Assembly (NCBI RefSeq): GCF_025685395.1
Contig: NZ_JAGSYA010000003.1
Coordinates: forward strand, 558,001-622,000
Direction of reading: 5' to 3'
Length of the DNA: 64,000 nt
Source: Terriglobus tenax
GTDB lineage: Bacteria > Acidobacteriota > Terriglobia > Terriglobales > Acidobacteriaceae
This document shows positions 31,037-63,353 of the stretch, piece after piece; within the stretch, counting starts at the first letter, position 1, and each line of letters starts with the position of its first letter. Under the pieces are notes generated by a model. The model did no database searches and had not been told where the DNA came from. It worked only from the letters and a program-made list of their open reading frames with translations. The position numbers were made by a program, and so were the translations under genes.

Positions 31037-31077
31037 GCCGGGATGGCGGAACTGGCAGACGCAGCGGACTCAAAATC
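31037..31077 (+). pseudogene. tRNA-Leu(CAA), 5' half only, broken by element insertion
   Basis: Bases 31037-31075 give acceptor 5' strand GCCGGGA, T8, a complete D arm, and the anticodon stem GCGGA with loop CTCAAAA (anticodon CAA). The expected 3' stem TCCGC is replaced by TCGTC and no variable arm, T arm or CCA follows. The break sits right after GACTCAAAATC, a block also found in the complete tRNA-Leu at 56413-56423. Confidence 0.8.
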
Positions 31078-34775: not shown

Positions 34776-34779
34776 ATCC

Positions 34780-35745: not shown

Positions 35746-35923
35746 TAGTCCTCCAAAGCCCTCGCCAGCGAGTTCTGATCTAGAAGACTCGAACAAACGT
35801 GAGGAGCATCATTTCGAACCAGCATAGCAAAGATTCTCGTATGCGTATAGTTTCAATCCTAATAGATTGCATTTGGGATGCTAATGCTTGTGGATAACTG
35901 GTACAATCACGTATAAATATGAA
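35746..35923. promoter_or_regulatory. Divergent promoter region between CBASS and the WYL regulator
   Basis: This AT-rich 178-base gap separates the CD-NTase gene (minus) from the regulator gene (plus). It should contain both promoters and, by analogy with CapW-controlled CBASS operons, a palindromic operator. I could not fix an operator by eye with confidence. Confidence 0.5.
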
Positions 35924-36817: not shown

Positions 36818-36841
36818 GCAACAAGAGGAAGCCACGGAACG

Positions 36842-39800: not shown

Positions 39801-39922
39801 AGTTCACCGAAGTCTTTGGCATGAACGCAGACTTTGCTTCCGTAGTCGAGAGTGAGTTCCAGAAGATGGTGGACTCCGTGACCGAACCCAATTCCGCTGA
39901 GAACCATTCTGTAGAGAATTAA
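36842..39922 (+). CDS. Type III-like restriction enzyme Res subunit (DEAD-type helicase plus nuclease)
   Basis: 1026 residues. The SF2 helicase core has Walker A LATGAGKTTVMAM (about 173-185), DEAH box NDEAHHCY (about 310), LDLSATPFF, MLTEGWDANTVTHVLGVRAFG and QVIGRALRRQSYEL. At the C-terminus a PD-(D/E)xK nuclease reads YRPDFMV (Asp930) and VVEVKGY (Glu950, Lys952). This is the domain order of type III Res proteins. It needs the methyltransferase for target recognition and ATP to translocate before cutting. It is followed by the methyltransferase after 10 bases. Confidence 0.93.
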   Translation: MPSSFFEHPILNSPYEYPARHWEMDESGQPTQQIIESRRIAQFVTPIPKPRKHRQPAIQEDIEFGDHTGVSTRAQRYETIPIINELRQQVDEWRRLPSPSDWLVTPETARLLQHWRHHSFQSIRPFFCQVEAVETAIWLTEVAPKRPAWKKFVEHVAAANANANPGLNRLALKLATGAGKTTVMAMLIAWQTVNSVRRSGSTSFTRGFLVVTPGLTIKDRLRVLQPSDLDSYYASRELVPIDMLDDIKRAKIVITNYHAFKLRERMELSKGNRALLEGRHGDAINTLETEGQMLQRVMPDLMGLKNIMVLNDEAHHCYKEKPGSPDEEDLTREDKEEAERNKEAARLWINGLEAVKRKIGVQRILDLSATPFFLRGSGYAEGTLFPWVMSDFSLMDAIECGIVKLPRVPVADNSPGAEVPIFRELWTNIRKLMPKKGRGKADGLDPLSLPTPLYTALDALYGHYKETFEKWQEVGYRVPPCFIIVCQNTAISKLVYDYVSGFFRNNEDGSTQLENGRLELFRNFDAHGNPYARPRTLLIDSEQLESGEALDENFRKVAASEIEQFRRERVERTGLQERAEDIDDVSILREVMNTVGKEGRLGAEIRCVVSVSMLTEGWDANTVTHVLGVRAFGTQLLCEQVIGRALRRQSYELNEEGLFDVEYADVLGIPFDFAAKPVVVTAVPPRQTIQVKAVRPERDKLEIRFPRVMGYRAELPNERLTAKFTDDSKLLVTPELTGPSQTQNSGIVGESVNLTVSHLRDTRPSTILYELTTHLLYTKWRNPGEEPPLHLFGQLKRIVKEWLDTCLICRGDTYPAQVLYRHLADMACERITAAINAESGDRATIKALLDPFNPVGSTSHVNFATSKTTRWQTDPRRCQINWVILDSDWEAEFCRVAESHPRVRSYVKNHNLGFDVPYRYGSDSRIYRPDFMVLVEDGHGEDDLLHLVVEVKGYRREDAKDKKITMETYWIPGVNNTGKFGRWKFVEFTEVFGMNADFASVVESEFQKMVDSVTEPNSAENHSVEN

Positions 39923-39932
39923 GAGAAGACCG

Positions 39933-42731: not shown

Positions 42732-42740
42732 GGAACGAGC

Positions 42741-44810: not shown

Positions 44811-45141
44811 TGTGTTGGCACCTGTAATGGGGACGTCGATCCAGTTCATTGGTGTTTCTGGTGAGAGCCGCTGCCTCTGGCAGCGGGATGAAGGTTGACA
44901 CGTCACCCCCAAATGGGAACTGCACAGGTGCACCTGTGTTTACGCGGGTGAACATGTTTAGAAACAGCATTTTGCGAAACGCTTCTTCCGCGCCGTAAAC
45001 GCAGGGAATCGTGAGAATCCCTGAAATGGCCGAAATGCGTAAACACGGTGAATCGGAACGTACTTAGCCGCGATCAGCCTCAGAGCTGTACTTGACGCGG
45101 ATTTTGCAGTGGAGCATCTTGGAAGCAAGGCGGGCTTCCCC
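44811..45141. other. Gap before the mobilisation genes, candidate oriT region
   Basis: About 330 bases without a gene. It contains a perfect 16-bp palindrome CACAGGTGCACCTGTG (44923-44938), a 10-bp inverted repeat GTGTTTACGC (44936-44945) / GCGTAAACAC (45037-45046), and GGAAGC-N7-GCTTCC near 45121. Clusters of such repeats just upstream of mob genes are common at transfer origins. No nic site could be assigned. Confidence 0.45.
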
Positions 45142-45567
45142 ATGAGCACATCCCGCACGACCAATCCGGCATTCTCAGGCGCTTCGGAAAGCGCACAGGA
45201 AAAGCCCGGCTTCCGCACAAAAACCATCGCGACAAGGGTCACTCCAGAGGAACTTCGTGAGGTCGAAGCGGCTGCCGAGAAGAGCGGCAAAACGCTCGCG
45301 GAATGGCTTCGGGAACTATCGCTGAAGGCGGCGCGAGAGCACCCTGCCGACCCGGCCGAGCTGGTGCTTTCCGAGGTCGTGGCACTCCGCTACATGCTCC
45401 TGAACCTGTTCCATGCGACTGCCCAAGCGAACGCGGAGAGCAAGCATCTGCTGGCCGAGTCGGTGCTGAAAATCCGTGACCAGGCGAACGCCCGAAAGCT
45501 GGCCGATGCCCGCAAATTGCTCTCCGATTTTCTGGCCGGGGAGGATGGAACCGGAGGCCAGAAATGA
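45142..45567 (+). CDS. MobC/RHH relaxosome accessory protein
   Basis: 141 residues from ATG (an in-frame GTG at 45109 is possible). The ribbon-helix-helix pattern KTIATRVTPEELREVEAAAE followed by KSGKTLAEWLRELSLKAA is typical of MobC and related relaxosome proteins that bind oriT and help the relaxase. The C-terminal half is helical and alanine rich. The last four bases overlap the coupling protein ATG, so the two are coupled. Confidence 0.82.
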   Translation: MSTSRTTNPAFSGASESAQEKPGFRTKTIATRVTPEELREVEAAAEKSGKTLAEWLRELSLKAAREHPADPAELVLSEVVALRYMLLNLFHATAQANAESKHLLAESVLKIRDQANARKLADARKLLSDFLAGEDGTGGQK

Positions 45568-47540
45568 GTACCGGAGCGATGCGCTTTCCCAGCCGTGGGC
45601 GGTGGCTCCTGTGGCTGGTTTTGCTCTTCGTGCTGGGGCCGTTTCTGGTCATCGTTCCGGGGACGCTCTGGCTCGGCTGGACGATGAATCCCGTCCAGAA
45701 CTTTTACCTCGGAACCTATGCCGCTTGCTCCACACTGAGTCCTTATCCCACCGCTCTGACCACGGTACGGTATGTCGAGAAGACGGCCCCGGGGCGGAAG
45801 CCGGAGCCGCTTTTGCCAGAGGATGCGGTCAAGAGTTCCGATCCGAAACAACGATTCGCATTAAGCCCCAAGGCCATCGCGGAGGGCTGGCGCGGGATTA
45901 CGATCCTGCCACCCGGCAAAGTTCGCGCAGCAGAGCTGAAAGCATATCTCCAAGACACAATCTACGACGGGGATAGTGCGTGGTTGATCTTTCTTCGGCC
46001 ACCGCTTTACCTGACAGCAGCAGTGCTTTTCCTATACACACTGTGGCTGACGTTCGGCCATAAAGTTCGCATCAGCCGGAAGCATGAACAGCGTCACGGA
46101 CGACGCACTAAAGGCCCGGAGATGGTGGCCGCCTTCAACGTGTTCCGCCGCTCCAGTGAGGACGGAATCCGGTTCCGGATGGAGCGGGACGGCTTGCTCG
46201 GCAGGGTGATTCCAGGACCGAGCTTTTCGATTCCGAAGCGGCTGGAATCCAGTCATGTTCTGCTGATGGGTGACACGGGCTCGGGCAAGTCTTCAGCCAT
46301 CCGGCAGATTCTCCGCCAAGTTCAGGACAGGGGTGAAAGTGCCATCGTCTATGACCCGGCTATGGACTTCTTGGGCGAGTTCCACGATCCGAAAAGAGGC
46401 GACCTCATCCTGAACCCACTCGATCAGCGCTGTCCGTACTGGGGCCTTGGAGACGAGATCGACCGACCGGAAACAGCCACCACTATTGCCGCCGCGATGT
46501 TGCCGGAGAAGGAATATGAAAAAGCGTTCTTCACCGATGCGCCGCGCCGGGTGCTGGCTCATCTGCTGAGGAACAAGCCACAGCCTAGAGACATCCTGCG
46601 GATGATGGCCGACCCTTCATACATAGAGGCGGCGGTCAAAGGAACTCCACTTGCTGCCCTGCTCGATCCCGGCGCTCCCGCGCAGCGTGCTGGCGTTCTC
46701 TCCAGCCTGAACATGGTCGCCGATAGCCTGGAGTTGCTGCCCGAGTGGGAGCATACGCGCAAGACATTTGCGACTGCAGAGTGGTATACCGAACGCAAGC
46801 GTTGGGTCTTTCTGACATCCTCTGCCGCCTATCGCGAGAAGGTCCTGCCGCTGTACTCTGCATGGCTCGATTTGTTCATCCTGCGCATGATGGGTTACTG
46901 CGAAGACCCTGCGGTAAAGCCGGTCTGGTTTGTTCTGGACGAGCTGGCCAGCTTGAACAAACTGCCGCAGCTTCATACCGCCGTGACTGAGAATCGCAAG
47001 TACGGAAATCCCGTTGTCATGGGGATTCAGGGACGCAGCCAGATGGAGAAGCGCTACGGCCAGGACGCCGAGGCCATGCTCTCGCAGCCCGCGACGAAAA
47101 TCTTTCTGAAGACATCCGAGCCACGCGCTGCCAAGTGGATCTCCGAAAGTATCGGCGAGATCGAGGTCGAGCGGCTGAAGGAGTCACGCAGCATGGGGTT
47201 GCTGCGCTCAAAGAAAAGCTTTGCGATGGAGATCGCCACCAAACCACTCATCATGGCTTCCGAGATCGCCGGGCTTGCTCCGCTTACCGGCTTTATCCAG
47301 CTGGAGAATTATGTCGTTCCGGCAAGGTTCAGCCTGGCAAAGAAGCACAACAAGCAGCCGGAGTTTATCGAGCGAGCATTGGAAAAGCCACGACCGCGCA
47401 AGGTTGAGACTGTGAAGACCACGACGCCCACCAAGGCTCCTGCCCCCCCAAAGGCTGTTCAGGGCGTCTTGCCTTTGGATGAAACTTCTGCCGTGAAACG
47501 TGAGGGCTTCAGTTGGGATGAGAGCAAAGGCATCGAATGA
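45564..47540 (+). CDS. Type IV coupling protein (TraD/TraG/VirD4 family)
   Basis: 658 residues. Two N-terminal transmembrane segments (about 14-36 and 147-165) anchor it to the membrane. The cytoplasmic ATPase has Walker A MGDTGSGKSSAIRQIL (from residue 235) and Walker B-like WFVLDELASLNKLPQL. It should link the relaxase-DNA complex to a secretion channel and pump DNA. No channel genes are present here, so it would have to use one supplied by another element. The C-terminal tail is proline rich (TKAPAPPKAVQG). Confidence 0.92.
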   Translation: MSTGAMRFPSRGRWLLWLVLLFVLGPFLVIVPGTLWLGWTMNPVQNFYLGTYAACSTLSPYPTALTTVRYVEKTAPGRKPEPLLPEDAVKSSDPKQRFALSPKAIAEGWRGITILPPGKVRAAELKAYLQDTIYDGDSAWLIFLRPPLYLTAAVLFLYTLWLTFGHKVRISRKHEQRHGRRTKGPEMVAAFNVFRRSSEDGIRFRMERDGLLGRVIPGPSFSIPKRLESSHVLLMGDTGSGKSSAIRQILRQVQDRGESAIVYDPAMDFLGEFHDPKRGDLILNPLDQRCPYWGLGDEIDRPETATTIAAAMLPEKEYEKAFFTDAPRRVLAHLLRNKPQPRDILRMMADPSYIEAAVKGTPLAALLDPGAPAQRAGVLSSLNMVADSLELLPEWEHTRKTFATAEWYTERKRWVFLTSSAAYREKVLPLYSAWLDLFILRMMGYCEDPAVKPVWFVLDELASLNKLPQLHTAVTENRKYGNPVVMGIQGRSQMEKRYGQDAEAMLSQPATKIFLKTSEPRAAKWISESIGEIEVERLKESRSMGLLRSKKSFAMEIATKPLIMASEIAGLAPLTGFIQLENYVVPARFSLAKKHNKQPEFIERALEKPRPRKVETVKTTTPTKAPAPPKAVQGVLPLDETSAVKREGFSWDESKGIE

Positions 47541-47602: not shown

Positions 47603-49708
47603 CTAATTCGCCAAGATAATCTGGGTGCATTCCTGCAAGACATATTCAGGAATGTTGTCAAATTTGTGTGGGTTGAGTTGCATCACATACTCGTTTTCGA
47701 TGTGGAAAGATTCATTCACAAATTTCTGGAGAATGCTGTTGTCATCGACGGTTGCCTGGTGAACCTGCCTGTATATCCTGAAGAGTTGCAATTTGTCATA
47801 TCCAACTGTTGCCGTCTGGAATCGGCGCTGCATTTCCCCTTTGTCACTAATGATAGAAAGCACGGCATCATAATTAAAATCCGGGATGGATTTCCTAATC
47901 TCAGCCAGTGCAGCTGCAATTTCTACGGTCGTCATTGCAACATCGCCAGAACTTGACTTCAGAACCGGAGTTGCTCTTCCGTGTAAAAGATTGGCGAGGT
48001 AGTTGTACTCAGACCCAAGATCATTAAGGATTTCGAAATGCCGCCTCAGGTAGATGCATTTGATGACCTCATCCGATAGGTCTCTGACATTTGCATCGCA
48101 TATCTGAGCGAAGGTCTGGATGTCGGAGTCTTTGATCTCAACCTCGGAAACAACACCGTCTTTTGACGCAAGAAAATATGCAGTCGGTTTTGGATGCTGA
48201 AACAGCCTTTTTACGCTTCGAATGATATCGATTGCAGGCTCTATGTCGTGCGTCAGCATGAGCACAGTTGCGTTTCGCAAACTGGCCTTCCCACGGAAAA
48301 GCTCATTCAGAATTGCAAACTTTTTCGTCTTATCGAAAGACGACACGGGATCATCTAAGATGGCAAGTCCGGGTTTCTCGCTCAGAACTTGATGCATAAA
48401 TAAGACAAGAGCAAAAGCATTCTTTTCTCCGTAGCTTAGGTGCTGTGCAGCGGCTTCCAGATGCTCACCGAAATCCTGGTGTACCAGCTTCATCTTGTAA
48501 GAATCGGCCTCTGGCTTAATAACCACGCTGTACTTGTAGCCGGCGGACTTCAGAAATCCATTGATACTATTCTGATTTTCATGAATGGACTGCTCAATGT
48601 GGCTCTTATGCCGGTTGATTTTTCCCTTAAGCTCTCCAATCTTAACTAATAGTTCCTGAAGTTTTTCATTTATAGGATCGATAACGGATTGCGTCTCTGA
48701 CGAGTTGAGTCTTGCCAACAATGAAAGATCAATCTTCAGCTTTGCAACTTCATCATCGATTTTGCCTGCATCACGAAGAGCGAAGAATGAGATGGACCGC
48801 AGCCCTTCGAGCTTGACGATCAGCGTTTCGACATCCCCGCGAAGTGCGCTCAGAAAATTTGTCTCTTCCAGAGATAACTCGATCTTCGATTTTGTTATCT
48901 TCTCCAGACTTTCCCGGCATGATTGTTCAAAGTAGTTGCCAAGCCTTGCAATGATCGCGCGTAAAGCACTTAAATGTTCAATAGATTTCGTGTCGTATTC
49001 TTTGGCAACTTGTTTGACTATGTCTTTCTTTTCGGGTTCCCGGATGTCTGATGCGCAGTAGGGGCAGTTGTCGGATAAATCCAGAAATACGTTTCCTTTT
49101 GTTTGCCATGCAATCCAACTGGCTGGCTGCTCACTCCTGATGAAAGCTTCAAACGGTTTGAGCTGGAGCGGAATGTTTTCAATTTTATTTCCAGAACCGA
49201 AGGCTTTGTAACCCTTACTGGATTTGGAGAGCGCACCGGACTTTGTGACGCCGAAGGCATCGCGAACTTCTTTTAGATCAGAAATTGTGTTGCTTAATGC
49301 TTCATTGCCTTCGAAAGCAGACTTGATACCCGCAAGAAGGCCTTCAATTTCTTGCATCGCGGCCTTATAAGTATCTGTTTTGATAAATATATCGAAGCTA
49401 TTTTTAAGGACCTCATCGCGCTGGAAAACGAACTGGGAGACATAAGATTCGTCAAAGACAAGAACTGATCCGATATTCTCGGCACCATGAACAACAGGCT
49501 CGTGCTGCCCGCTCGCTCCCCGGTGTTTGAATGGCTTCAAGGTTTGAAGCAAGCCGTTATTCGTCACAGTGGCGATAAGTGCTCGTGCAATCGTACTCTT
49601 ACCAAGTCCATTGGGGCCGTACTTGATATTAAGAGTCCCTTCACAAATGACGATTTTAGCGTTCTCGATGCAGTTGCAGTTTTCAATTGAGACTGTAAAC
49701 GAACTCAT
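47603..49708 (-). CDS. AAA_13/SMC-like ATPase with zinc-hook CxxC, defence candidate
   Basis: 701 residues from the ATG at 49708 (AAGGGG upstream). ABC-type ATPase parts are complete: Walker A KYGPNGLGKSTIARAL near residue 30, a coiled-coil middle with CPYCASDI (zinc-hook-like CxxC), signature LSYGEKNAFALVLFM, and Walker B LAILDDPVSSFD followed by VLMLTHDIEP. After the ATPase lies a C-terminal segment with LRRHFEIL (Arg-x3-Glu) and LANLLHGR, which recalls the Arg-Glu-His nuclease triad of PrrC and RloC anticodon nucleases, but spacing to the histidine is shorter. It is on the strand opposite to the transfer genes and is probably cargo. RloC-like activity is a guess. Confidence 0.75.
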   Translation of the reverse strand: MSSFTVSIENCNCIENAKIVICEGTLNIKYGPNGLGKSTIARALIATVTNNGLLQTLKPFKHRGASGQHEPVVHGAENIGSVLVFDESYVSQFVFQRDEVLKNSFDIFIKTDTYKAAMQEIEGLLAGIKSAFEGNEALSNTISDLKEVRDAFGVTKSGALSKSSKGYKAFGSGNKIENIPLQLKPFEAFIRSEQPASWIAWQTKGNVFLDLSDNCPYCASDIREPEKKDIVKQVAKEYDTKSIEHLSALRAIIARLGNYFEQSCRESLEKITKSKIELSLEETNFLSALRGDVETLIVKLEGLRSISFFALRDAGKIDDEVAKLKIDLSLLARLNSSETQSVIDPINEKLQELLVKIGELKGKINRHKSHIEQSIHENQNSINGFLKSAGYKYSVVIKPEADSYKMKLVHQDFGEHLEAAAQHLSYGEKNAFALVLFMHQVLSEKPGLAILDDPVSSFDKTKKFAILNELFRGKASLRNATVLMLTHDIEPAIDIIRSVKRLFQHPKPTAYFLASKDGVVSEVEIKDSDIQTFAQICDANVRDLSDEVIKCIYLRRHFEILNDLGSEYNYLANLLHGRATPVLKSSSGDVAMTTVEIAAALAEIRKSIPDFNYDAVLSIISDKGEMQRRFQTATVGYDKLQLFRIYRQVHQATVDDNSILQKFVNESFHIENEYVMQLNPHKFDNIPEYVLQECTQIILAN

Positions 49709-49975
49709 CTCGTTCCCCTTCTCGAAATCAGGGCCCAACTTCTGGCCACAATTCTATAGCTTTTGATCGTAGGCAATTTCAAGATTTGTGGCTGCTACGA
49801 GGATCTCACCCTGCATCTCAACCGGAAGGCCGCTGCGCCCGTATCCGCCAGAATCAAAGCTGTTATCCCAGCTAAGTTTGGAAGTGTTCGTGGGCGCCAA
49901 ATCGTCAATGCGCTCGGACCCATCGGATTAGCTGATATGTCGGCCTGTGTAGCTTCCCAAGCATAGAATCTCAAT
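49709..49975. other. Short divergent gap
   Basis: About 270 bases between the ATPase gene (minus) and the relaxase gene (plus). It holds no gene that I can support and should contain both promoters. Confidence 0.4.
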
Positions 49976-52732
49976 ATGCTGACGCTTTCCAAACCGTTGT
50001 CAGCGGGTCAGGTACGTACGTACCATGAGCGGGAGTTTGCGTCGGAGCGGCAGAACTACTGGAGCCGTAATCAGCAAGGACATAGCGAGTGGCAAGGACA
50101 GCTTGCAAGAGAGTGGGGCTTGTCTGGTCCAGTAGGCGACGAACACTTTGCGCGGCTAACTGAAGGCCAGCATCCGTTCACGCAAACGCAGATGGTGCAG
50201 CACCAGGTCTCGCGCACCTACGAAGGCAAGGATGGCAAAGACGTCACCAGCATGGAGCACCGTGCGGGATGGGATGCGACGTTCTCCGCACCCAAGTCCG
50301 TATCGCTGACCGCCTTGGTGGGCGGTGATGAGCGGGTGCGATTGGCACATCGCGACAGTGTTCGCGTGGCCTTGGGCGAGCTGGAGCATTACACGCAGGC
50401 CCGCATTGGCAATGTCCACGCGCCCGAGACGACTGGCAAATTCGCCGTAGCGACGTTCGAGCATGACACGGCCCGGCCCGTTGAAGGCTATGCCGCACCG
50501 CAGTTGCATACGCATTCTGTGATCTTCAATGTCACCGAACGCGACAATGGACAAACGCGCTCTCTGCAACCGCGTGAACTGTATGCTTCGCAGCATTTCG
50601 CCACGGCCATCTACCGGGCGGAGTTGGCAACACGGTTGCAGCAGTTGGGTTACGAGATCGAACGCGGCAAGTACGGCCAGCCGGAGATCAAAGGCTACAC
50701 GCGTGAGTATTTGGAAGCGTCGAGCCTTCGACGGGAGCAGATCAAAGATCATCTTCGGGAACAGGGATTGGATGGTGCCGGAGCCGCCCAGATTGCGGCG
50801 CGCTCCACCCGCGACAAGAAAGAATTGCTGTCGCCGGAGGAAGTCCAGCGGCAGCACCGCGAGTTGGCAGCTTCGTTCGGCCATCAGGCGGACCATGTTG
50901 TAGCAGCGGCGCGTGAGCGTAGCCAGCAACATCAGCAGGAAGGAAGCCCAGAGGTAGCTGCGCGGCAGGCCGTCACCTATGCCCGCGATCATCTCTTCGA
51001 GAAGTCTGCCGTGCAGGACCGCCGTGCTTTATACGACATCGCTTTGCAGCGCGGCATGGGTGAAGTGACCTATGGACAGGTGCGACAGGAGGTGAATCGA
51101 CGCTTTGAATCGGGTGAGTTCCGGCAGGCTCCGTCCTCTGTGCGTGGTCCGCAGATCACCACCGCCGAGATGGTCCGCACGGAACGCGAGATCGTCGCCA
51201 TCCTCGAAAATGGCAATCAGCGTGGGTACCACCATCCCATGCTCCTCGAAGGGAGGGAGCGCTTCGATACTGTGGAGCGGCACCCTGAACTAAATGCCTC
51301 GCAACGGCAAGCGGTCGAGCAGCTCTTCGCTTCGCGGGAGAAGATTGTCGGAATGGACGGTGTGGCCGGAGCTGGGAAGACAACCACACTGGCTGTAGTG
51401 CGCGAAGGTGCGGAGCGGGAGGGATACACAGTACAAGGCTTTGCTCCTACATCCCGCGCGGCACAGAAGCTTGGCGAAGCCGGAATCGAAACATCCACCC
51501 TTCAGATGCATCTTGCGCGAGGCCAGAAGCCGGATATCGGCGAGAGACGCCTGTACGTTTTGGATGAATCCTCACTTGCTTCTACAAAACAGATGCATGA
51601 GTTCCTGACACGCTTGCACCCGAACGACCGTGTATTGCTGGTGGGCGACAAGCGACAGCATGAGGCAGTCGAAGCAGGTAGACCGTTTGCGCAGTTACAG
51701 CAGGCTGGCATGAAGACGGTTTCGCTCGACCAGATCGTGCGCCAGAAAGACTCAGAGCTGAAGCAGGTTGTCGAACAGCTTGCTCAGGGTGATGTAGGTG
51801 TGGCTATTCAGAGACTAGAGCAACAGGGCCGAGTACATGAGTTCAAAGGGCGGGAAGAGCGGATCGAAGCCATTGCGAAGGAGTATGCCAGGAGCCCTGA
51901 AAACACCTTGGTTGTTTCTCCCGACAACCGTTCGCGCATGGAGATCAATCAGGTCATTCATGCAGAGTTGCAGGTGCGCGGCATTGTGAACCACGACGAG
52001 CACACCGTGCGAACGCTGGTGCCGCGACAGGAGCTTACCGGTGCGGCCCGCACCTGGGCGGAGAACTATGAAGTCGGTGATATTGTCCGCTACAGCCGCG
52101 CGTCGAAAGAAACCGGCATCGGCAAAGGCGAGTATGCTCGCGTGACCGATGTGGACGCGCGTAGTAACCATGTGACTGTGAAGACCAAGGACGGAATCGA
52201 GCGAAGCTACGATCCACGTCGGCAGTCCGGCGTCTCTGTCTATCGAGAAGAAGAGCGTGCCTTTTCCGTAGGAGACCGCGTACAGTTCACCGCTCCCGCG
52301 AATGAGTTGAAGGTCGCGAACCGTGAACTGGCGACAGTCGAGCGGATCGAGGATGGACGGATGAGTCTGCGCATGGACGATGGACGGAATGTCCAGATCG
52401 ATCCTGCCAAGCATCCGCATCTCGATCATGGCTACGCAGTGACCAGTCATTCCAGCCAGGGACAGACCGCAGACCGGGTGCTGGTCCATGTCGATACCGA
52501 GCTTGCTGCCAAAGACCTTCTGAACAACCGCATGGCCTATGTAGCTGTCTCGCGCGGCGCAGAGGATGCGCAGCTCTTCACCAATGACCGTAGCAAGCTG
52601 GGGCAAGCACTCGGACGGGACGTGTCGCAGCAGAGTGCCCATGTCCCAGAAGCCAAGCTGGAAAAGAGCACTGGGATAGAGACCCCGGAGATGAAGCAAG
52701 ACATCGGATACGGTCACGGCATTTCGATGTAA
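49976..52732 (+). CDS. MobF-family relaxase/helicase (TrwC/TraI type)
   Basis: 918 residues. The relaxase domain (1-300) has candidate catalytic tyrosines Tyr16 and Tyr28 and the histidine metal cluster His163, His178 and His180 (FEHDTARP, PQLHTHSVIFN). SAPKSVSLTAL is another TrwC-family block. The C-terminal RecD-like helicase carries Walker A VAGAGKTTTLAVV (about 463-475), LYVLDESSLAS, LVGDKRQHEAVEAGRPF and GYAVTSHSSQGQTADRVLV. It should nick oriT and unwind the transferred strand. Together with the coupling protein it makes the element mobilisable. Confidence 0.95.
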   Translation: MLTLSKPLSAGQVRTYHEREFASERQNYWSRNQQGHSEWQGQLAREWGLSGPVGDEHFARLTEGQHPFTQTQMVQHQVSRTYEGKDGKDVTSMEHRAGWDATFSAPKSVSLTALVGGDERVRLAHRDSVRVALGELEHYTQARIGNVHAPETTGKFAVATFEHDTARPVEGYAAPQLHTHSVIFNVTERDNGQTRSLQPRELYASQHFATAIYRAELATRLQQLGYEIERGKYGQPEIKGYTREYLEASSLRREQIKDHLREQGLDGAGAAQIAARSTRDKKELLSPEEVQRQHRELAASFGHQADHVVAAARERSQQHQQEGSPEVAARQAVTYARDHLFEKSAVQDRRALYDIALQRGMGEVTYGQVRQEVNRRFESGEFRQAPSSVRGPQITTAEMVRTEREIVAILENGNQRGYHHPMLLEGRERFDTVERHPELNASQRQAVEQLFASREKIVGMDGVAGAGKTTTLAVVREGAEREGYTVQGFAPTSRAAQKLGEAGIETSTLQMHLARGQKPDIGERRLYVLDESSLASTKQMHEFLTRLHPNDRVLLVGDKRQHEAVEAGRPFAQLQQAGMKTVSLDQIVRQKDSELKQVVEQLAQGDVGVAIQRLEQQGRVHEFKGREERIEAIAKEYARSPENTLVVSPDNRSRMEINQVIHAELQVRGIVNHDEHTVRTLVPRQELTGAARTWAENYEVGDIVRYSRASKETGIGKGEYARVTDVDARSNHVTVKTKDGIERSYDPRRQSGVSVYREEERAFSVGDRVQFTAPANELKVANRELATVERIEDGRMSLRMDDGRNVQIDPAKHPHLDHGYAVTSHSSQGQTADRVLVHVDTELAAKDLLNNRMAYVAVSRGAEDAQLFTNDRSKLGQALGRDVSQQSAHVPEAKLEKSTGIETPEMKQDIGYGHGISM

Positions 52733-54510: not shown

Positions 54511-54874
54511 ACCGCTGTCGTAGGAGCGTGCGTCGTTCTCTTGGTCGGAGGAAGTTTCCTCCGCGCTGCAACCGCTTCGCGTTCTTCGCTTCCACCTCTG
54601 CGGGCCGTTCCTTCCCGCAGCGCCCTCCCTATAGTTCTTGTACGCTGACGCGCACTGAATAAGGAATCCACGCATTGCTAAGGGGTCTCCCCTCGCGCAC
54701 TGCAAGGACATTCGCCCTGAAGGGTTTTGGCTCCCCCGCAGGCGGTCCCCCCAAAAAGCTTCGCTCGAAGACCTTTCCGTTTGCTACCCCCGCCTTCGCC
54801 AGGAGGCGTTCGGCATGTACATGCCGCGTTCAACGCGGACGTGCAAAAGCAAATGCCGACAAGGAGCCAACACC
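54511..54874. other. Gap upstream of the antirestriction gene
   Basis: About 360 bases, pyrimidine-rich in parts, with no gene I can support. It includes a perfect 16-bp palindrome CGGCATGTACATGCCG (54811-54826) about 50 bases before the start of the ArdC-like gene, a possible operator. Confidence 0.45.
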
Positions 54875-55780
54875 ATGAGCACCACAGCAAACACCGCAAT
54901 CCTCAAAACCAAAGAGCAGCCCAAGACCGCCCGCGAAGTCATCGCGGAGAACGTGCAGTTTCTCATCGAGCAACTGGAGGCCGGGCATTCCGAAGCACTC
55001 ACCGACTACCTCAACGCCATGAGCCGGTTTCACAACTACTCGCTTGGCAACATCCTTGAAATCGCACGGCAGCGACCGGATGCAACCCGCGTAGCTGGCT
55101 TCTGGACATGGAAGAACTTAGGCCGTTCCGTAAAGAAAGGCGAGAAGGGCATCCGCATCCTTGCGCCCATCATTGGCGTTCGCCGGAAGAAAGATGCCGA
55201 AGCCGAGAAGGACATCACCAAGCAAAACACCGCTGTGCTATGTGGCTTTCGTTCGACGTATGTTTTCGATGTCTCGCAGACGGACGGCGCAGATCTGCCC
55301 GACATGCAACAAGTATCCGGCGATCCCAGCGAGAACTCAGAACGTCTGGCCGCTTTCGTTCGGTCACGCGGCATCACCCTTGTCTATAACGCCAATATTG
55401 CCCCGGCGCTTGGCATGAGCTACGGCGGGCGTATTGCAATCTTGCCAGGACAGTCGAAAGCTGAAGAGTTTTCAACGCTGGTACACGAGACGGCGCACGA
55501 ACTGCTGCACAAGGCAGAGCGCAGGACAGCTACCACCAAGTCCGTGCGTGAGACTGAGGCGGAGGCCGTTGCCTTTGTTGTGGGCAAGGCCGTTGGCTTG
55601 GTGACAGGTACGGCGTCCGCCGACTACATCCACCTGTACCACGGCAATGCATCACTGCTGGCCGAATCACTGGAAGTCATTCAGAAGACGGCAGCGGTCA
55701 TCCTTGCCGCACTGGAGCCGACCATTGAAGAGGAGAGCGATACAGCCGCCACCGACGAATTCGAGGAGGTGGCGGCATGA
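54875..55780 (+). CDS. ArdC-like antirestriction protein
   Basis: 301 residues from the ATG at 54875, preceded by AAGGAG (54861-54866). The N-terminal ssDNA-binding domain (about 15-130) shows YLNAMSRFHNYSLGNILEI, TRVAGFWTWKNLGRSV and KKGEKGIRILAPI. The C-terminal zinc metallopeptidase domain carries LVHETAHELLHKAERR (HExxH) and a downstream ETEAEAVAFVV glutamate. ArdC proteins protect incoming single-stranded DNA from restriction during conjugation. Its presence fits a conjugally mobilised element that meets restriction systems in new hosts. Confidence 0.88.
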   Translation: MSTTANTAILKTKEQPKTAREVIAENVQFLIEQLEAGHSEALTDYLNAMSRFHNYSLGNILEIARQRPDATRVAGFWTWKNLGRSVKKGEKGIRILAPIIGVRRKKDAEAEKDITKQNTAVLCGFRSTYVFDVSQTDGADLPDMQQVSGDPSENSERLAAFVRSRGITLVYNANIAPALGMSYGGRIAILPGQSKAEEFSTLVHETAHELLHKAERRTATTKSVRETEAEAVAFVVGKAVGLVTGTASADYIHLYHGNASLLAESLEVIQKTAAVILAALEPTIEEESDTAATDEFEEVAA

Positions 55781-56190
55781 AGATCATTCTCAACATCCTC
55801 AAGAAAGCCGGAGGTTGGCGACCGAACCTCTATATCAAAATCGAGAACCCGCCCTATTTGCCGTTGGTCATCGAGGGAATGCCGGAGTCAGGCCCACTCG
55901 GTCTCCCTGCGCTGGCAGTCGCCCACTATGGCGAACAGAACGGCGACGCCATGCGCGACCCGGAAATGTGTTTCGAGCTTGGTCTCGCAGGAGGCGCACA
56001 CCTGATTCCGTACTTTTGGCGAAATGACTCTGTAGCAGTAGAGCAGGTCTCACGTGCCATCATCCGTGACCACTACGTCGCTCTTCTCGAATTGCAGAAG
56101 CGACACGAGAAGTTGGCGGAGATATGGGACAACAACCTGCGCTTGCAGGGCTACGAAGACGCTTTCACGAGCAAATGCATTCTCGGCTAA
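55777..56190 (+). CDS. DUF6908-like small protein of mobile elements
   Basis: 137 residues. KIILNILKKAGGWRPNLYIK at the start, IENPPYLPLVIEG, and AVAHYGEQNGDAMRDPEMCF in the middle match a short conserved protein often found next to ArdC-like genes on plasmids and integrative elements (DUF6908, from memory). Its function is unknown. It starts four bases before the antirestriction stop, so it is co-translated with it. The operon ends at a terminator 14 bases downstream. Confidence 0.65.
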   Translation: MKIILNILKKAGGWRPNLYIKIENPPYLPLVIEGMPESGPLGLPALAVAHYGEQNGDAMRDPEMCFELGLAGGAHLIPYFWRNDSVAVEQVSRAIIRDHYVALLELQKRHEKLAEIWDNNLRLQGYEDAFTSKCILG

Positions 56191-56279: not shown

Positions 56280-56382
56280 ACCCATTTCCGACTGTCTTCC
56301 GGCCCCCGCTCGTCGGCTGCGCGATGGAAGAGACGCTCAGAGCGCGCATCGGCTCATAGTACTGCGGTACAATCTAGAGGAT

Positions 56383-56469
56383 GGCCGAGTGGTGAAATTG
56401 GCAGCCACAGCAGACTCAAAATCTGCCGAAGGCAACTTCGTGTCGGTTCGAGTCCGACCTCGGCCACCA
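56383..56469 (+). tRNA. tRNA-Leu (anticodon CAA), complete
   Basis: 87 bases with acceptor GGCCGAG/CTCGGCC, discriminator A and encoded CCA, D arm, anticodon stem GCAGA/TCTGC with loop CTCAAAA, a long variable arm (class II) and T arm GTCGG-TTCGAGT-CCGAC. Its acceptor and anticodon stems differ from the broken tRNA-Leu at 31037, so it is not the missing half of that gene but a separate gene with the same anticodon. Confidence 0.95.
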
Positions 56470-56612: not shown

Positions 56613-57524
56613 TCATCTGTCAGCTCTCCCAAGATGAAGGTCTTGCCGCGTCAGGTTTGGGCGCGCTCCAAGACGTCTCCAGCCAGGGGGCAGACTCTTA
56701 AAAAGACGCTTCTGTGAAGATGTCGGCGCAGCAAGCTGAGCGTCATCCAAGCTCTGCACAGGAAGGCTGATCACTTGAGTAGCAAACATATCATTTCCGT
56801 CATGTCGATAGACAGTACGACGCCACGGCTCATAGTAGGGAGATACGGCAATGGAACCGCCAAAGAAACCTGTATTGCAAATGACCATATTGCAATACAT
56901 GGTGCGAGCTAGCGATTCCGCATGGTGTCTAAATGATTCGGTGTCCTGGTTGTATGCAATAACGAACATGTGATGCACTCGGCCTTGATACAGCAACGCT
57001 CTTTCAAGGTCCATTAAGTCGTAACATATGGACACACCGAAGTCTCCGATATCATCGGACCTGAAGAGCCACAGCTTAGGGTCACCTCTGAACCTCCATC
57101 CCGATTGTTGTAACTTCGCATGCTCCCCCGGCGCAGGGAACGTTTTCCCTATATTCACAAATGCTGGCACTTTCGGCGGGATACTCCTTCTCGATGCAGG
57201 AACCATAACCATTGCTTCATTCCATACGGTTTTGGTTTCGTGCTCGATCTTATAATCAAGTCCCGCGATAACTATGCTTCCCAATGAAGCAGCGGCTGTT
57301 CTTAAACTGTTAATTTGACCTCGAGGCAGTGCAAGCTCAGGTAAAAGGACAATATCGGGAGTTGGTGACAAGGCAGAAAAGCTGCGGAAGGCACTCCTGA
57401 TGTCTTCCCAAGTGCTCTCTTGCTCATCAGTGGTCATGCGTGGTCCCGCTTTCCATGCTGAGCGGGCATCGACGTTTGTCTGAACTAAGCCTACACGCAT
57501 ATATTCCACGTATCTTTTTGGCAT
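56613..57524 (-). CDS. Nitrilase/carbon-nitrogen hydrolase partner of the reverse transcriptase
   Basis: 303 residues of the nitrilase superfamily. The Glu-Lys-Cys triad can be placed: Glu63 in LLPELALP, Lys127 in NIGKTFPAPGEH and Cys167 in VSICYDLMD. The enzymes cut C-N bonds; no substrate is evident here. Its ATG overlaps the reverse transcriptase stop by one base, so both are translated together. In DRT1-type (UG1) defence reverse transcriptases a nitrilase is fused to the reverse transcriptase, and in related UG lineages it is a separate gene, as here. It probably acts as effector or signal enzyme of the system. Confidence 0.88.
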   Translation of the reverse strand: MPKRYVEYMRVGLVQTNVDARSAWKAGPRMTTDEQESTWEDIRSAFRSFSALSPTPDIVLLPELALPRGQINSLRTAAASLGSIVIAGLDYKIEHETKTVWNEAMVMVPASRRSIPPKVPAFVNIGKTFPAPGEHAKLQQSGWRFRGDPKLWLFRSDDIGDFGVSICYDLMDLERALLYQGRVHHMFVIAYNQDTESFRHHAESLARTMYCNMVICNTGFFGGSIAVSPYYEPWRRTVYRHDGNDMFATQVISLPVQSLDDAQLAAPTSSQKRLFKSLPPGWRRLGARPNLTRQDLHLGRADR

Positions 57525-60500
57525 TATTGGTCGTCATCCTCCGGGATTTCATCACGATTCTGTTCGATTGCCCATTCTTCCCGTGAAATCTGCTCCAATC
57601 TGAGGGGTATGAGCTGCCTCGGTTGGTGATTGTGAACTGTGATCTGACCTTGCTCTAGGACCTCAGTTGCTCTCTCTAAGTAATGCCGCAGGTCCCTTTT
57701 TGTAAAAATCCTAGGTGGATCGTATGCTGTATCGTCGTCTCCTCCGAAACCACTTAGTAGTTTGTGGTCAAACAGGAAGTTTTCTTTCTGACGTGGGATC
57801 AAACACGCTTCCAAAATCGCAGTCGTCCAAGACGATGCAGCGACTTGACGAATGAGTTCTCGAGATATTTCTCCGCTATCAGACTCACGCCCCGGCATGT
57901 TCCATGCCGCAGGCAAGGTGAAATCCCTCCTCAAGAGTCCAAGAAGAACGAGACCAAACTCCTGAAGATCAAGGAACTCTTTCTCCACTATCGGAACATC
58001 AATCCCAATCGGGTGTAACGATGCAGGTATATGCCTTGAAATAACCGTGCCCTTCTCTAACGCACTATTCCAGGTATCCCACCGCGGAATTGAGTCAGTG
58101 GGCTCGAGCCACATAGCTGGAATCCAAAACTCAGACCAATGTATCGGAGCTGCGCCACGTTTATGTTCAGTCACTGATAAGAGCTTCAGAGTTATTTTGA
58201 GCGCAGTCCACTCCCCGGTCCGCGGGTCGAATGGCTGGACTTCTGCACGAGCTCTTGTCCATTCGCACCACGCACTCAGGCTTATCATGTTAGTTTTTGG
58301 CTTTGTCACAAATGTGATCAATTGACGAAATCTACTATTTCTTGGATACAGGTTAATGCTTTGCGGATGATCAGATACGGATTCGAGCAACCAACCGATT
58401 GGATTCGAAGGCGGGATCATTCGACTAGACGGGATTGACTGACGCGAGAATTCAGCCAATGCGGCGGGATAGCGCGACAACATAGCCCAAGCAGATTGTT
58501 CTTTTGGATTGAGGTTGGGTGCGACAGTTTGCCACAGAAGACCCGGTTTGGTAGCTAGCTTGGGCTGAATTCTCGTGTCCGCCCACCATGCCCAGGTACC
58601 GAGTGAATAACCTGATTCACTTATCCATTCGGCAGGAACTCTAGACCAGTTCAGCGCTTCCGCCCTTCGTGCAGCGCGGCTTATCGATGCGATATCAGTT
58701 TTTGAAAGGACCTCGTCTGTTGAAGCATGTTGTATTTCGAGGCGTACGATTCCAGCAGCCGCCTGGCAGAGCAAAACGGATCGTCTTTCATAGAATTTTG
58801 GCATTTGCGAGGGGGAAAGCTTTTCAACCAGTTGGAAGCAAGCTCCGATGTATCTCTTTGCTGCTAAGCGTCGCCGACTCGGGTACTCGTCTGAAAGCAA
58901 TACTCGGACGGACACCAGAAGCTGTTTCGCCACTGTTTGGAGTAACCGTGCTCGCAACACACGACAACCCGTTGTCCCTTTTAAGGCCTGCCGGTTCAGC
59001 TCATCGATGATAGGCACGAGCTGGTCGTGGCCTGTCAGCCGACAGTATTCAAGAACCCTCTGCCAAAGTCGCAACTTCTCTGGATGATCTCTGACAGCTT
59101 TCATCAAAGTTGCGAATATGCGTGCTCTTTCCTTCCGCTCCTGAGAATCGATCCACTGACGAATCGAACGAAGTGATTCAGAGATACCAGATGAAAGAGC
59201 CTTATCCGCAGCTAATTGTTGACGTAGCGAGCGCTTCAGGTTGACTTCAACAGACCTATCTTTCAATCGCTCGCTTGTCGCACGAATACGGTCACTAATC
59301 GAAAGTAATTCTCGTTCTTTAGCGACAAGTTGTTGTTTAGATTCCTGCCTGTTCGAGGCAAGGCGTGCGATCTTCGTTGCGGCGAATGAGGCGCGGGTAG
59401 CAGCAGGCAGTTCTGTTTCTGGCAAGGGAGCCAAGAGAAGATGTTCGAGATCATGAAGAGCGGCATCTTCTTCTTTGCTGTCTAGTAAGTCGAAATCTAC
59501 GCGACCGATCTCAGATATCTTCGCCAGAGTCTTGGTCATAAGAGGGGTCGGAAAGCGAGGGTCCAGCTTAGAGGCTTCCGTTGCGCTTCTCTTTTGTATA
59601 GCTAGGGCTTCGAAGTCAATTTTCTTCCGTTGAAGCGAGTAGTAGTTTCCAAAGTCTTTCGGATCGAATTTGTCTGGATTGAATGTCGCTCCTATTGCGT
59701 GTTTTGAGAGAAGTTGGTCATACTTCCGCACCCAAGATTCAAGTTTTTCAAACGTCGGAGCCAAGACGACATGGTCATCAACATAACGGAAGTGTGCCAC
59801 TTGTGCGTCCGCCACCTTTCTGTTCACAATGCTGTCAATCTTCAGCATGGCGACGTTCGCCAGAAAACCGGCTACCATCAATCCAGTGGGTACGTGAGAA
59901 AAGTGCTCGTCTTTGCTGCTAAGACCTATTTGCATGAGCTCTTTGTCAGACCAATTCTTGTAATCAACCTTAAAGCGGAGCAGATCGTCTAGCAGAGAAC
60001 CTGTAATGTCCGAGGCGTCTTTGCAGTATGCGCGGATATTCGAGGCCACCGCTGAAGAGAGAAGACTGGGATAAAACTTTTCAAGATCTAGCGATACCCA
60101 GTACGAATTGCGGGTGCGTGTTCGCCAGTACCCGGCTTGCAGGTATGGCAAGCGATTTGACCGTCGCTCTTCAGCTTCGAGCGCAGCTCGCTCCGCATCG
60201 TTCAGAGCGACTTCGGCGTCGTACTTCTTTAAGCCCATTCTGCGAACAGTCAAATAGATATGTCTTCGGTAAAGAGGCCAACTATGTTGGAAGCGTCTGT
60301 ATAGCAAACCACCCGAGTTTCGAAAGGGACCGAAGCGAAGGGACATGCTGGAATCAGACGTGTCGTACCAAACAGGCCTGTAGAGACGATTACCGTAGCT
60401 CCACGTTGGCATCTGTTCTTCGAGCTCCGGACCTATCACATTAGTGAATGCCACCCACGCGACTTGGTCTCGCACCCGGACCCAGAACGCTTGACGTGCT

Positions 60501-60739
60501 CTGGGGCGCGCCTCCGAATCGGGCGCTTTGGGCTGTGGTAGCGGGACCAAAGGAGCCATGGTATAAGTCCCTTTTGCAAATTGCTTCCTGATTGAATCGA
60601 GTTCGACATCAAGATTGGCCTCAAATTGCGCTACCTCGAGTTCGTCGTACCATGCGTCAGTTGTTGTGTAGTAACGTCTGACCTTTCCCCACGCCCAATA
60701 GAAGTTTTCACGCAGGAGGAGATGTTCTAAGGCTGCCAT
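57524..60739 (-). CDS. UG-class defence reverse transcriptase (DRT, nitrilase-associated)
   Basis: 1071 residues. The polymerase domain occupies about residues 1-400: motif A VSLDLEKFYPSL with Asp218, PTGL (284-287) in the motif B position, and YVDD at 319-322 (HFRYVDDHVVLAPT). The first 120 residues contain WVRVRDQVAWVAF (palm/finger-like). Beyond residue 450 there is a long helical and beta region of about 600 residues with no recognisable domain. No group II intron maturase, retron or diversity-generating features were found. The adjacent nitrilase places it with class 1 UG reverse transcriptases, which protect against phages. Closest subgroup (UG1, UG5 or other) cannot be fixed by eye. 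Confidence 0.87.
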   Translation of the reverse strand: MAALEHLLLRENFYWAWGKVRRYYTTTDAWYDELEVAQFEANLDVELDSIRKQFAKGTYTMAPLVPLPQPKAPDSEARPRARQAFWVRVRDQVAWVAFTNVIGPELEEQMPTWSYGNRLYRPVWYDTSDSSMSLRFGPFRNSGGLLYRRFQHSWPLYRRHIYLTVRRMGLKKYDAEVALNDAERAALEAEERRSNRLPYLQAGYWRTRTRNSYWVSLDLEKFYPSLLSSAVASNIRAYCKDASDITGSLLDDLLRFKVDYKNWSDKELMQIGLSSKDEHFSHVPTGLMVAGFLANVAMLKIDSIVNRKVADAQVAHFRYVDDHVVLAPTFEKLESWVRKYDQLLSKHAIGATFNPDKFDPKDFGNYYSLQRKKIDFEALAIQKRSATEASKLDPRFPTPLMTKTLAKISEIGRVDFDLLDSKEEDAALHDLEHLLLAPLPETELPAATRASFAATKIARLASNRQESKQQLVAKERELLSISDRIRATSERLKDRSVEVNLKRSLRQQLAADKALSSGISESLRSIRQWIDSQERKERARIFATLMKAVRDHPEKLRLWQRVLEYCRLTGHDQLVPIIDELNRQALKGTTGCRVLRARLLQTVAKQLLVSVRVLLSDEYPSRRRLAAKRYIGACFQLVEKLSPSQMPKFYERRSVLLCQAAAGIVRLEIQHASTDEVLSKTDIASISRAARRAEALNWSRVPAEWISESGYSLGTWAWWADTRIQPKLATKPGLLWQTVAPNLNPKEQSAWAMLSRYPAALAEFSRQSIPSSRMIPPSNPIGWLLESVSDHPQSINLYPRNSRFRQLITFVTKPKTNMISLSAWCEWTRARAEVQPFDPRTGEWTALKITLKLLSVTEHKRGAAPIHWSEFWIPAMWLEPTDSIPRWDTWNSALEKGTVISRHIPASLHPIGIDVPIVEKEFLDLQEFGLVLLGLLRRDFTLPAAWNMPGRESDSGEISRELIRQVAASSWTTAILEACLIPRQKENFLFDHKLLSGFGGDDDTAYDPPRIFTKRDLRHYLERATEVLEQGQITVHNHQPRQLIPLRLEQISREEWAIEQNRDEIPEDDDQ

Positions 60740-62437: not shown

Positions 62438-62725
62438 TCATCTCTGCTTTGAAACTGTTGAAGCAGTAAAAAGCCTCTCATTTTCGAGCATCAAGTCATC
62501 AAGAGTAGGCCGCTTGCTCGCTGCGACTTGAAGGTTGAACTCCAGGCCGAGTGAAATCAGGATGTTGTTTACTTTCATGTATCCCAGCTCGCCCATCCTG
62601 CCATTTTCAAGAGCGTCCAAAGTCGAACGGCTAACGCGCGCCATCTTCGCAAGTTCAGCCTGAGTCAAACCAACAGTCTTTCGCCTCTTTGAAATCTCTT
62701 CACCGATATCAATCAGTAACAACAT
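62438..62725 (-). CDS. XRE-family HTH protein (antitoxin-like)
   Basis: About 95 residues from the ATG at 62725; the frame is open up to 62806 but the preceding residues do not fit the family. The HTH is clear: LIDIGEEISKRRKTVGLTQA then ELAKMARVSRSTLDALENGR, followed by MKVNNILISLGLEFNLQ and a tail RPTLDDLM. Proteins of this type are often antitoxins (HipB-like), but no toxin gene follows on this strand. It lies about 90 bases downstream of the nucleotidyltransferase gene and may belong to that operon. Confidence 0.7.
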   Translation of the reverse strand: MLLLIDIGEEISKRRKTVGLTQAELAKMARVSRSTLDALENGRMGELGYMKVNNILISLGLEFNLQVAASKRPTLDDLMLENERLFTASTVSKQR

Positions 62726-62810
62726 GTTGCCCAGTATATCGGGCACTACGGAGTGCCAAATCACCTTTGACTCGTATACGAGGCAGGTGTCCATGTCGAA
62801 CCCCAAACGC

Positions 62811-63353
62811 CTATTTCTCTGCGAGCATTTCCATCCATAACTTCATCGTCAGATCTTCGCGGTCCGGCCTTCCAAGTTGCCAACGCAGCTCCGCTTCATA
62901 GCGTTGCTGGAGCGTTGGCAGGCTGAACGGCACCGTGCGGCTGAGATACCGAACGTCATCACGGTCTTTCTGACTGTTCCGTTCGAGTTTCGATAAGGCG
63001 ATATCGTATGGATCGAGAGCCATCAGTCTGAGGTGTCGATATGCTCCAGGGAACATCTCTGTGAGCCGTTCTTCGTAATTCTCCGGGATTGCAGCCACGC
63101 CGACGCGATCAAGGTAAATCCGATGCTTTCGATGAAGAGGGCCTCCTTGCATTGCAATCTGCATCAGCGCCTCGGACGCCTCTCTCGGTGCAAGTTCGAT
63201 GACGTCCACATCCGCCGTCGGGCGGGCGAGTCCATATAGCTGTGTGACAACAAACCCTCCGATGCAGTCCAGGCGAGCGGGCACTTGCAAGGCATCATCA
63301 AGATCGCGAAGGAACGAGTGCCAAGGTTCGGGAGGCCTTAACTCAGAAGACAT
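62811..63353 (-). CDS. DUF6036-type nucleotidyltransferase, probable toxin
   Basis: 180 residues. IGGFVVTQLYGLARPTADVDVIEL has the nucleotidyltransferase pattern of a Gly-Gly loop followed by the metal pair Asp-x-Asp (TADVD). LMALDPYDIALSKLERNSQKDRDDVRYL is the typical downstream helix-and-acid block of AbiEii/DUF6036-like proteins. Such enzymes are toxins of type IV or related systems or nucleotide-transfer effectors. It overlaps the upstream HTH gene by eleven bases, so they form one unit. Confidence 0.78.
   Translation of the reverse strand: MSSELRPPEPWHSFLRDLDDALQVPARLDCIGGFVVTQLYGLARPTADVDVIELAPREASEALMQIAMQGGPLHRKHRIYLDRVGVAAIPENYEERLTEMFPGAYRHLRLMALDPYDIALSKLERNSQKDRDDVRYLSRTVPFSLPTLQQRYEAELRWQLGRPDREDLTMKLWMEMLAEK

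Follow-up and report, generated by a model that had tools for sequence, protein, structure and literature searches.

The split host gene and its complete counterpart

Why should an element that splits a tRNA gene of its host carry a complete tRNA gene with the same anticodon? This question is raised by the 64,000-nucleotide stretch analysed here (the window; C3:558001-622000 of a 4.36-Mb genome in four contigs), for which a first-pass annotation, made from the sequence alone, had proposed that a tRNA-Leu(CAA) gene in an accessory region could replace a broken one. Our reading, to which we assign a probability of roughly 0.87, is that the split host tRNA-Leu(CAA) gene has been replaced by the cargo of a probably mobilisable defence island.

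The broken gene does exist. Its 5' half (attL; 31037-31077, + strand; 100% identity over query positions 1-41) starts 12 bp past the stop codon of corA and ends at the anticodon loop, with no 3' half after it, while the 3' half (attR side) is located at C3:622182-622240, 182 bp beyond the right edge of the window. Both halves carry the same 12-bp att core, GGACTCAAAATC (31066-31077, + strand; identical copy at C3:622182-622193, equivalent to 64182-64193 and outside the window), so that the integrated element (31066 to 64000 and on to C3:622182) measures 33,116 bp from core to core. Joining the two halves over GGACTCAAAATC gave a perfect 88-nt tRNA-Leu(CAA). This 33.1-kb element holds the cargo tRNA; as a correction to the annotation, its right end is found past the window edge. 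A tRNA rebuilt at attL or attR was considered and ruled out, either half being incomplete: ARAGORN found no tRNA gene at attL and the attR sequence lacked a 5' part. The junction sequences, in the window as in the integrase family described below, place the attB site of the integrase inside the host tRNA gene, and with a core of only 12 bp neither junction can regain the whole tRNA. Another 3' fragment of a tRNA-Leu(CAA) gene, now decayed, occurred about 20 kb to the right of attR (C3:642474-642533; 92% identity over query positions 30-88), which suggests an older insertion into the same site.

The complete gene (56383-56469, + strand) was typed as tRNA-Leu(CAA) by ARAGORN and matched Rfam RF00005 with 52.4 bits, compared with a cut-off of 29, confirming it as a real tRNA gene. 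Its cloverleaf is complete, with a long variable arm and A73, and the CCA end is encoded. As annotated, it shares its anticodon with the host copy and is unlike it in sequence: 66 of 95 aligned columns were identical to the rejoined host gene, and the anticodon stem differed from that of the target by a single stem pair. A -10-like TACAAT (56368-56373, + strand) was read by eye, and the same place upstream of eight window-type cargo copies, again by eye, held TACAAT (six copies), TATAAT (one) or TATACT (one); a generic promoter scan returned no promoter for the cargo tRNA. The best-ranked matches of the cargo gene reached only 82% (a chromosome-sized Aeromonas record) and 80% (phiKZ-like phages), so that no close donor was found and a recent phage or plasmid origin was rejected.

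The tRNA inventory of the genome comprised 46 Rfam matches, all typed by ARAGORN, with one tRNA-Leu gene each for UAG, UAA, GAG and CAG in addition to the CAA cargo. Listing all tRNA-Leu genes, suggested in the first-pass annotation as a check, revealed no second intact CAA gene by Rfam and ARAGORN typing, by a pattern search, which returned the cargo, the 3' half of the split gene and nothing else, or by a tRNA-Leu covariance model, which gave no other CAA gene of comparable score. Loss of the cargo without precise excision had been expected to remove UUG decoding by this tRNA. The isoacceptor would disappear, but UUG decoding would not be wholly lost, as tRNA-Leu(UAA) is also able to read UUG by wobble. 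Since the genome keeps its tRNA-Leu(UAA), the cell might manage without the CAA replacement.

Gene content of the integrated element

The integrase gene (31211-32479, + strand) adjoins attL and is of the tyrosine-recombinase type; its product matched Pfam Phage_int_SAM_5 with an E value of 5.9e-4, just below the cut-off of that family, and one of its relatives is annotated as a tyrosine-type recombinase. It is followed by a type III CBASS system consisting of a NucC effector, TRIP13, HORMA and an oligonucleotide cyclase (32606-35796, - strand), and by genes for a WYL regulator, a ResIII-type helicase/nuclease, an N6/N4 DNA methylase and a UvrD-like helicase, resembling type III restriction-modification (35888-44810, + strand). 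Mobilisation genes code for a NikA-like mobilisation protein with a TrwB-like coupling protein (45109-47540, + strand) and for a TrwC relaxase-helicase (49976-52732, + strand). A low-GC gene (0.45), placed antisense between the coupling-protein and relaxase genes (47603-49738, - strand), encodes an AAA_13 ATPase that corresponds to PADLOC PDC-S06 and is a candidate defence protein; its matches to solved structures were all ABC-type ATPases. The relaxase, ArdC-N antirestriction and DUF6908 genes (the latter two at 54815-56190, + strand) precede the cargo tRNA gene, which the annotation had thus rightly located after mobilisation and antirestriction genes. Directly after the cargo tRNA gene lie a UG6-like defence reverse transcriptase and a separate nitrilase gene, an arrangement of the defence RT type (56613-60739, - strand), and an HTH regulator with a DUF6036 nucleotidyltransferase is situated near the right end (62438-63353, - strand).

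Neither phage structural families nor mating-pair genes were found among the window proteins scanned, although a relaxase and a coupling protein were present. The element thus has its own integrase and relaxase together with an incomplete conjugation apparatus, as is the case for integrative and mobilisable elements (IMEs), and differs from a temperate phage by its TrwC and TrwB proteins and the absence of any phage structural family among the proteins scanned; it probably represents an integrative, mobilisable defence island. The same TrwC/TrwB pair occurred in a related element that splits a tRNA-Leu(UAA) gene (genome G163; G and L numbers denote genomes and integrase loci, respectively). 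The integrase matched none of 50,697 phage records; matches were obtained to 24 plasmid records and, in a viral scan that reached close relatives only, to one viral contig. Three plasmid relatives that were read (L320-L322) had neither a cargo tRNA nor a tRNA half; the viral contig (L319) had no tRNA half either, and its sequence, ending 153 bp after the integrase match, is too short to judge cargo.

Comparison with relatives of the same genus

The comparison with relatives favoured replacement too, and neither of the findings that the first-pass annotation had named as refuting its idea was made. The cargo gene was matched at E 1e-16 or better in only four of 150 genomes, this genome included, and 11 of the 18 same-genus relatives contained a full-length, host-type gene of at least 88% identity to the empty-site gene; in six others, all drafts, matches were partial, weaker or lacking. 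The three relatives fetched (G001, G003 and G006) each had a complete gene typed as tRNA-Leu(CAA), with a relative of corA directly upstream in G006. In G005, the host gene was present as halves only, and these flanked the same integrase together with a cargo tRNA of 97% identity. The 17-kb element concerned coded for GmrSD and TIR/SLOG proteins, no relaxase being found among the seven proteins scanned, and it carried a DUF6036 gene at its right end as well.

Target genes and cargo in the integrase family

The integrase family was taken as the best 80 of 245 relatives from a scan of genome contigs, the nearest ones belonging to the Acidobacteriaceae. Upstream of these 80 integrase genes, 24 CAA halves, 42 UAA halves and seven complete tRNAs were found, the remaining seven loci having no recognised half (L097, L155, L157 and L161 were assigned to their target class by eye). 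Hence, in 66 of the best 80 loci the integrase gene had beside it one half of a tRNA-Leu gene, severed at the anticodon loop. Such halves came from Acidobacteriota and Pseudomonadota and, in one draft, from Binatota. In three planctomycete loci, a cargo tRNA-Leu followed the integrase gene but no half was recognised.

Cargo was found for most CAA loci. A CAA tRNA gene was adjacent to the integrase gene in nine of the 24, farther along the same contig in seven (L091, L092, L095, L096, L098, L100 and L103) and on another contig of the draft in five (L093, L094, L099, L101 and L109); no cargo was found for L089 and L090, nor for L121, where the tRNA was apparently rebuilt at attR. The cargo was seen flanked by the two junctions in the window, in G005 and in G153; in G157, G159, G164 and G162, it stood some 200 bp ahead of attR. 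Adjacent cargo occurred in 39 of the 58 split loci, compared with none of the six complete-tRNA loci with enough sequence, and intron-aware ARAGORN found no tRNA-Leu gene in the available sequence of all seven complete-tRNA loci.

The anticodon of the cargo agreed with that of the split gene in all 48 elements for which both could be linked (30 UAA and 18 CAA). This count is confined to the window, G005, same-contig and adjacent cargos, several of the same-contig ones being linked by contig and not by a located right end of the element, and leaves aside 34 of 82 rows for which the target or the linked cargo was unknown; L161 provided one further agreeing pair. Fisher's test gave p = 1.4e-13 for this agreement, with rows that are related by descent. 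On the integrase tree, target and cargo each required at least eight switches; independent pairs on well-supported branches numbered only four, all of them agreeing (sign test, p 0.125). Together with the cargo being the sole intact CAA gene found, this agreement supports the proposal that it replaces the broken one.

The same counts bear on the possibility that the cargo tRNA serves the translation of UUG-rich genes of the element itself, as in large phages, its match to the target being incidental. The ORFs of the element (31100-64000) were indeed richer in TTG (15.9 versus 6.0 per thousand codons) and TTA (6.1 versus 1.1) than the host ORFs of the window, but such a role predicts neither a cargo anticodon that follows the split gene in 48 of 48 cases, nor the lack of adjacent cargo at the complete-tRNA loci, nor a cargo that is the only intact copy found, making it very unlikely.

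The cargo was also the only CAA gene found, among the matches listed, in G000, G005, G152, G153, G156, G160 and G161, and in the drafts G150 and G151 the CAA gene was split and a complete one was not found among those matches. A complete UAA gene was present besides the split one in the draft G168, and G123 contained an 82% relative of the cargo tRNA. As for the integrity of these genes, 99.1% of the stem cells were paired in 18 distinct tRNA-Leu genes (14 cargo and four host-type), with 123 double-sided changes, compared with 66.1% and 40 in a shuffled control, a slid control being far lower as well. These data concern a further alternative, namely that the tRNA gene was acquired when the element excised imprecisely from an earlier host and has since been carried along as a neutral passenger. 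Genome G079 might be taken to indicate this, as it possesses a near-identical copy (97%) in another setting, without an integrase match at E 1e-20, in addition to a CAA gene of its own. A neutral passenger is nevertheless hardly probable, given the several distinct cargo sequences with well-paired stems in sister elements and the position directly after the integrase gene, which is kept in many lineages.

Intron-bearing cargo genes for tRNA-Leu(UAA)

Elements that split a tRNA-Leu(UAA) gene initially seemed to lack a replacement. This impression, stemming from searches for intronless genes, was discarded when intron-aware ARAGORN found a gene with a 210-bp intron. A tRNA-Leu(UAA) gene with an intron of 204-258 bp was located directly downstream of the integrase gene in 30 of the 42 UAA loci; nearly all adjacent UAA replacements were intron-bearing, and the intron was of group I where tested. 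Its placement between positions 34 and 35 follows from taking G as the last nucleotide of a group I intron. Seven of the other 12 UAA loci end too early after the integrase gene and five were without a call. In L115, the intron and the 3' exon were present and the 5' exon contained undetermined letters, while in L161 a UAA gene with an intron was found about 4.7 kb beyond the integrase gene, on the opposite strand. No intron-bearing UAA cargo was found in the available sequence of L097, L105 and L157: no cargo appeared within 11 kb in L097, and the complete UAA gene present in its genome (G158) was not linkable to the element, whereas the genome of L157 had an intron-bearing UAA gene elsewhere. 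An intron was also seen in a CAA cargo of an Acetobacteraceae draft (L149:11395-11715); it is of group I and separates positions 33 and 34.

Matches to the group I covariance model exceeded the Rfam cut-off in three of seven loci (L122, L149 and L130), and L102 scored 44.1 of the 50 bits required, with an E value of 4.7e-10 over the full model. Searched genome-wide, eight of 16 genomes contained a group I intron (G161, G163, G166, G169, G170, G197, G198 and G199); the UAA gene is split in every one of them, and three passed the Rfam cut-off (G197-G199). The intron lay at most about 200 bp from the integrase gene in six of these genomes, about 4.7 kb away in G199 and elsewhere in G198. The other genomes (G000, G001, G003, G005, G006, G152, G153 and G162) gave no group I intron genome-wide; among these, G162 contains the UAA-split locus L105, yet its UAA gene was apparently rebuilt at attR. 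Among the matches listed, not all of which were typed, no intronless complete UAA gene occurred in G163, G166, G169, G170 and G197, and the best UAA-like matches of G163, G166 and G170 were attR remnants (65-74 bits, compared with at least 92 bits for the complete CAA and UAA genes typed in this search). Only tRNA-Leu(UAA) reads UUA, and the intron-bearing UAA genes would therefore have to be spliced in those cells.

The intron interrupts the very sequence that the integrase would recognise. A 10-nt attL core was present in only one of 15 intronless CAA cargos (the cargos of L095 and L100 not counted), versus 23 of 30 mature UAA cargos, in the genes of which it is broken by the intron. The replacement thus seems to be hidden in one of two ways, by an altered stem or by an intron.

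Proposed mechanism

The following sequence of events probably accounts for these observations. The integrase recombines a core of about 12 bp inside the tRNA-Leu(CAA) anticodon loop, and the sequence shows that the host gene is split as a result, with neither junction rebuilding the tRNA. The cargo tRNA-Leu(CAA), preceded by its own promoter-like sequence, would then supply the lost tRNA, as is suggested by its being the sole intact copy, by its intact fold and by the family-wide match of cargo and target. Precise excision would restore the host tRNA-Leu(CAA). If the cargo tRNA were lost, or the element left imprecisely, the cell would be without this isoacceptor; integration and cargo would therefore be bound together. 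The changed anticodon stem of the CAA cargo may keep the integrase off the replacement, although for the window itself the evidence points weakly to such masking, since the anticodon stems of cargo and target differ by one pair only. In the UAA sister elements, an intron in the anticodon loop of the replacement gene interrupts the attachment core, so that the DNA no longer offers an unbroken site, and the mature tRNA can keep a host-like anticodon stem. As far as sequence data can tell, compensation of the split tRNA gene by the cargo is strongly supported; from the same data, we infer that the replacement would be essential, the intron spliced and the site masked.

A changed anticodon stem could also have another meaning, which the first-pass annotation had mentioned, the cargo tRNA acting as a decoy or resistant version against anticodon nucleases of the host or of phages. 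The stem is indeed unlike that of the host copy and the element carries the AAA_13 ATPase. This idea is nonetheless highly improbable: no nuclease or target was identified, mature UAA cargos often have a host-like anticodon stem, and the link between cargo and split gene would be left unexplained. To return to replacement, we regard as evenly balanced the broader proposal of a widespread non-phage family that integrates by destroying and replacing a tRNA-Leu gene, with the group I intron providing self-immunity to the replacement UAA gene: it would disrupt the core in the DNA and be spliced from the RNA, thereby concealing an essential tRNA gene from the integrase that the element itself encodes. 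If this reading of self-immunity is true, the hosts concerned can decode UUA only through a gene that belongs to a mobile element and splices itself, and bacteria may have acquired such introns partly by way of these elements.

Relation to known systems

The principle is already known as tRNA-dependent lysogeny, described with experimental proof in actinobacteriophages (Guerrero-Bustamante and Hatfull 2024, PMC10865867); the window element works likewise but is not a lysogen. Both share a tyrosine integrase, an attB site in a tRNA gene, a short core from which the gene is not regenerated, and a carried cognate tRNA; phage Gaia even targets tRNA-Leu-CAA, its core measuring 8 bp and a tRNA following its integrase gene (PMC10865867). 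However, the systems described there (PMC10865867) are temperate phages of Actinobacteria, whereas the window element is a non-phage element with a relaxase and a coupling protein, and the present family occurs in other phyla and has introns in its UAA replacements. The authors of that report cite a Lactobacillus prophage and ask how far the phenomenon extends beyond actinobacteriophages (PMC10865867). A replacing tRNA gene has also been reported for Sinorhizobium prophages (PMC11476347), while a report on phiLM21-like prophages states that no such features were found (PMC12429752).

Integrase-driven insertion into a tRNA gene is shared with classical islands and IMEs (Islander, PMC4383910; PMC5704250); anticodon-centred sites are common in Islander (PMC4383910) and mobilisation genes occur in IMEs (PMC5704250). 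In contrast to the window element, with neither junction rebuilt and a whole gene carried, these elements are described as rebuilding the tRNA at a junction from a carried fragment (PMC4383910, PMC5704250). ICEApl1 and ICEHin1056 target tRNA-Leu(TAA), as do the UAA sister elements, but are described with imperfect repeats of 66 bp, a gene that is complete though altered, and strains with three gene copies (PMC4908127). Group I introns in the anticodon loop of tRNA-Leu(UAA), as found in the UAA replacements, are known from cyanobacteria and plastids, and bacterial tRNA introns occur in a few alpha- and beta-proteobacteria as well (PMC4033280). Those genes are described as resident host genes (PMC4033280), whereas the UAA replacements adjoin the gene of an integrase that splits the same tRNA gene. 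For archaea, split tRNA genes have been proposed to impede integration (Randau and Soll, cited in PMC4033280).

No report of intron-bearing replacement tRNAs or of non-phage tRNA-dependent integration was recognised among the papers listed in searches of the open-licence literature. New here are the non-phage, at least partly mobilisable, defence-carrying elements of Acidobacteriota and Pseudomonadota and their intron-bearing replacements. They would extend tRNA-dependent integration outside phages and to phyla other than Actinobacteria, and make the dependence between host and element directly testable in culturable soil bacteria, among them Edaphobacter lichenicola M8US30, with an element of the UAA type, and M8UP30, with one of the CAA type. 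Moreover, linking bacterial group I introns of tRNA-Leu(UAA) to an integrase target would provide a concrete selective reason for their exact position. Island searches that look for a tRNA fragment next to a regenerated tRNA gene would miss islands of this kind.

Other junction arrangements in the family

Several loci deviated from the arrangements above. In L157 and L161, the junctions were chimeric, the UAA gene being split and a foreign 3' part lying at attL. L203 (G180) and L212 (G162) showed a complete host-type tRNA-Leu gene preceded by element-like sequence; in these genomes, the tRNA was apparently restored at attR by a 5' part borne by the element, an alternative way of rescue. One planctomycete locus (L154:11259-11343) had a tRNA-Leu(UAG) gene after the integrase gene, a matching half upstream not being found. 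Finally, the att core GACTCAAAAGC upstream of the integrase genes of L141 and L146 was flanked on its far side by near-identical non-tRNA sequence, perhaps representing a circular or non-tRNA-integrated form.
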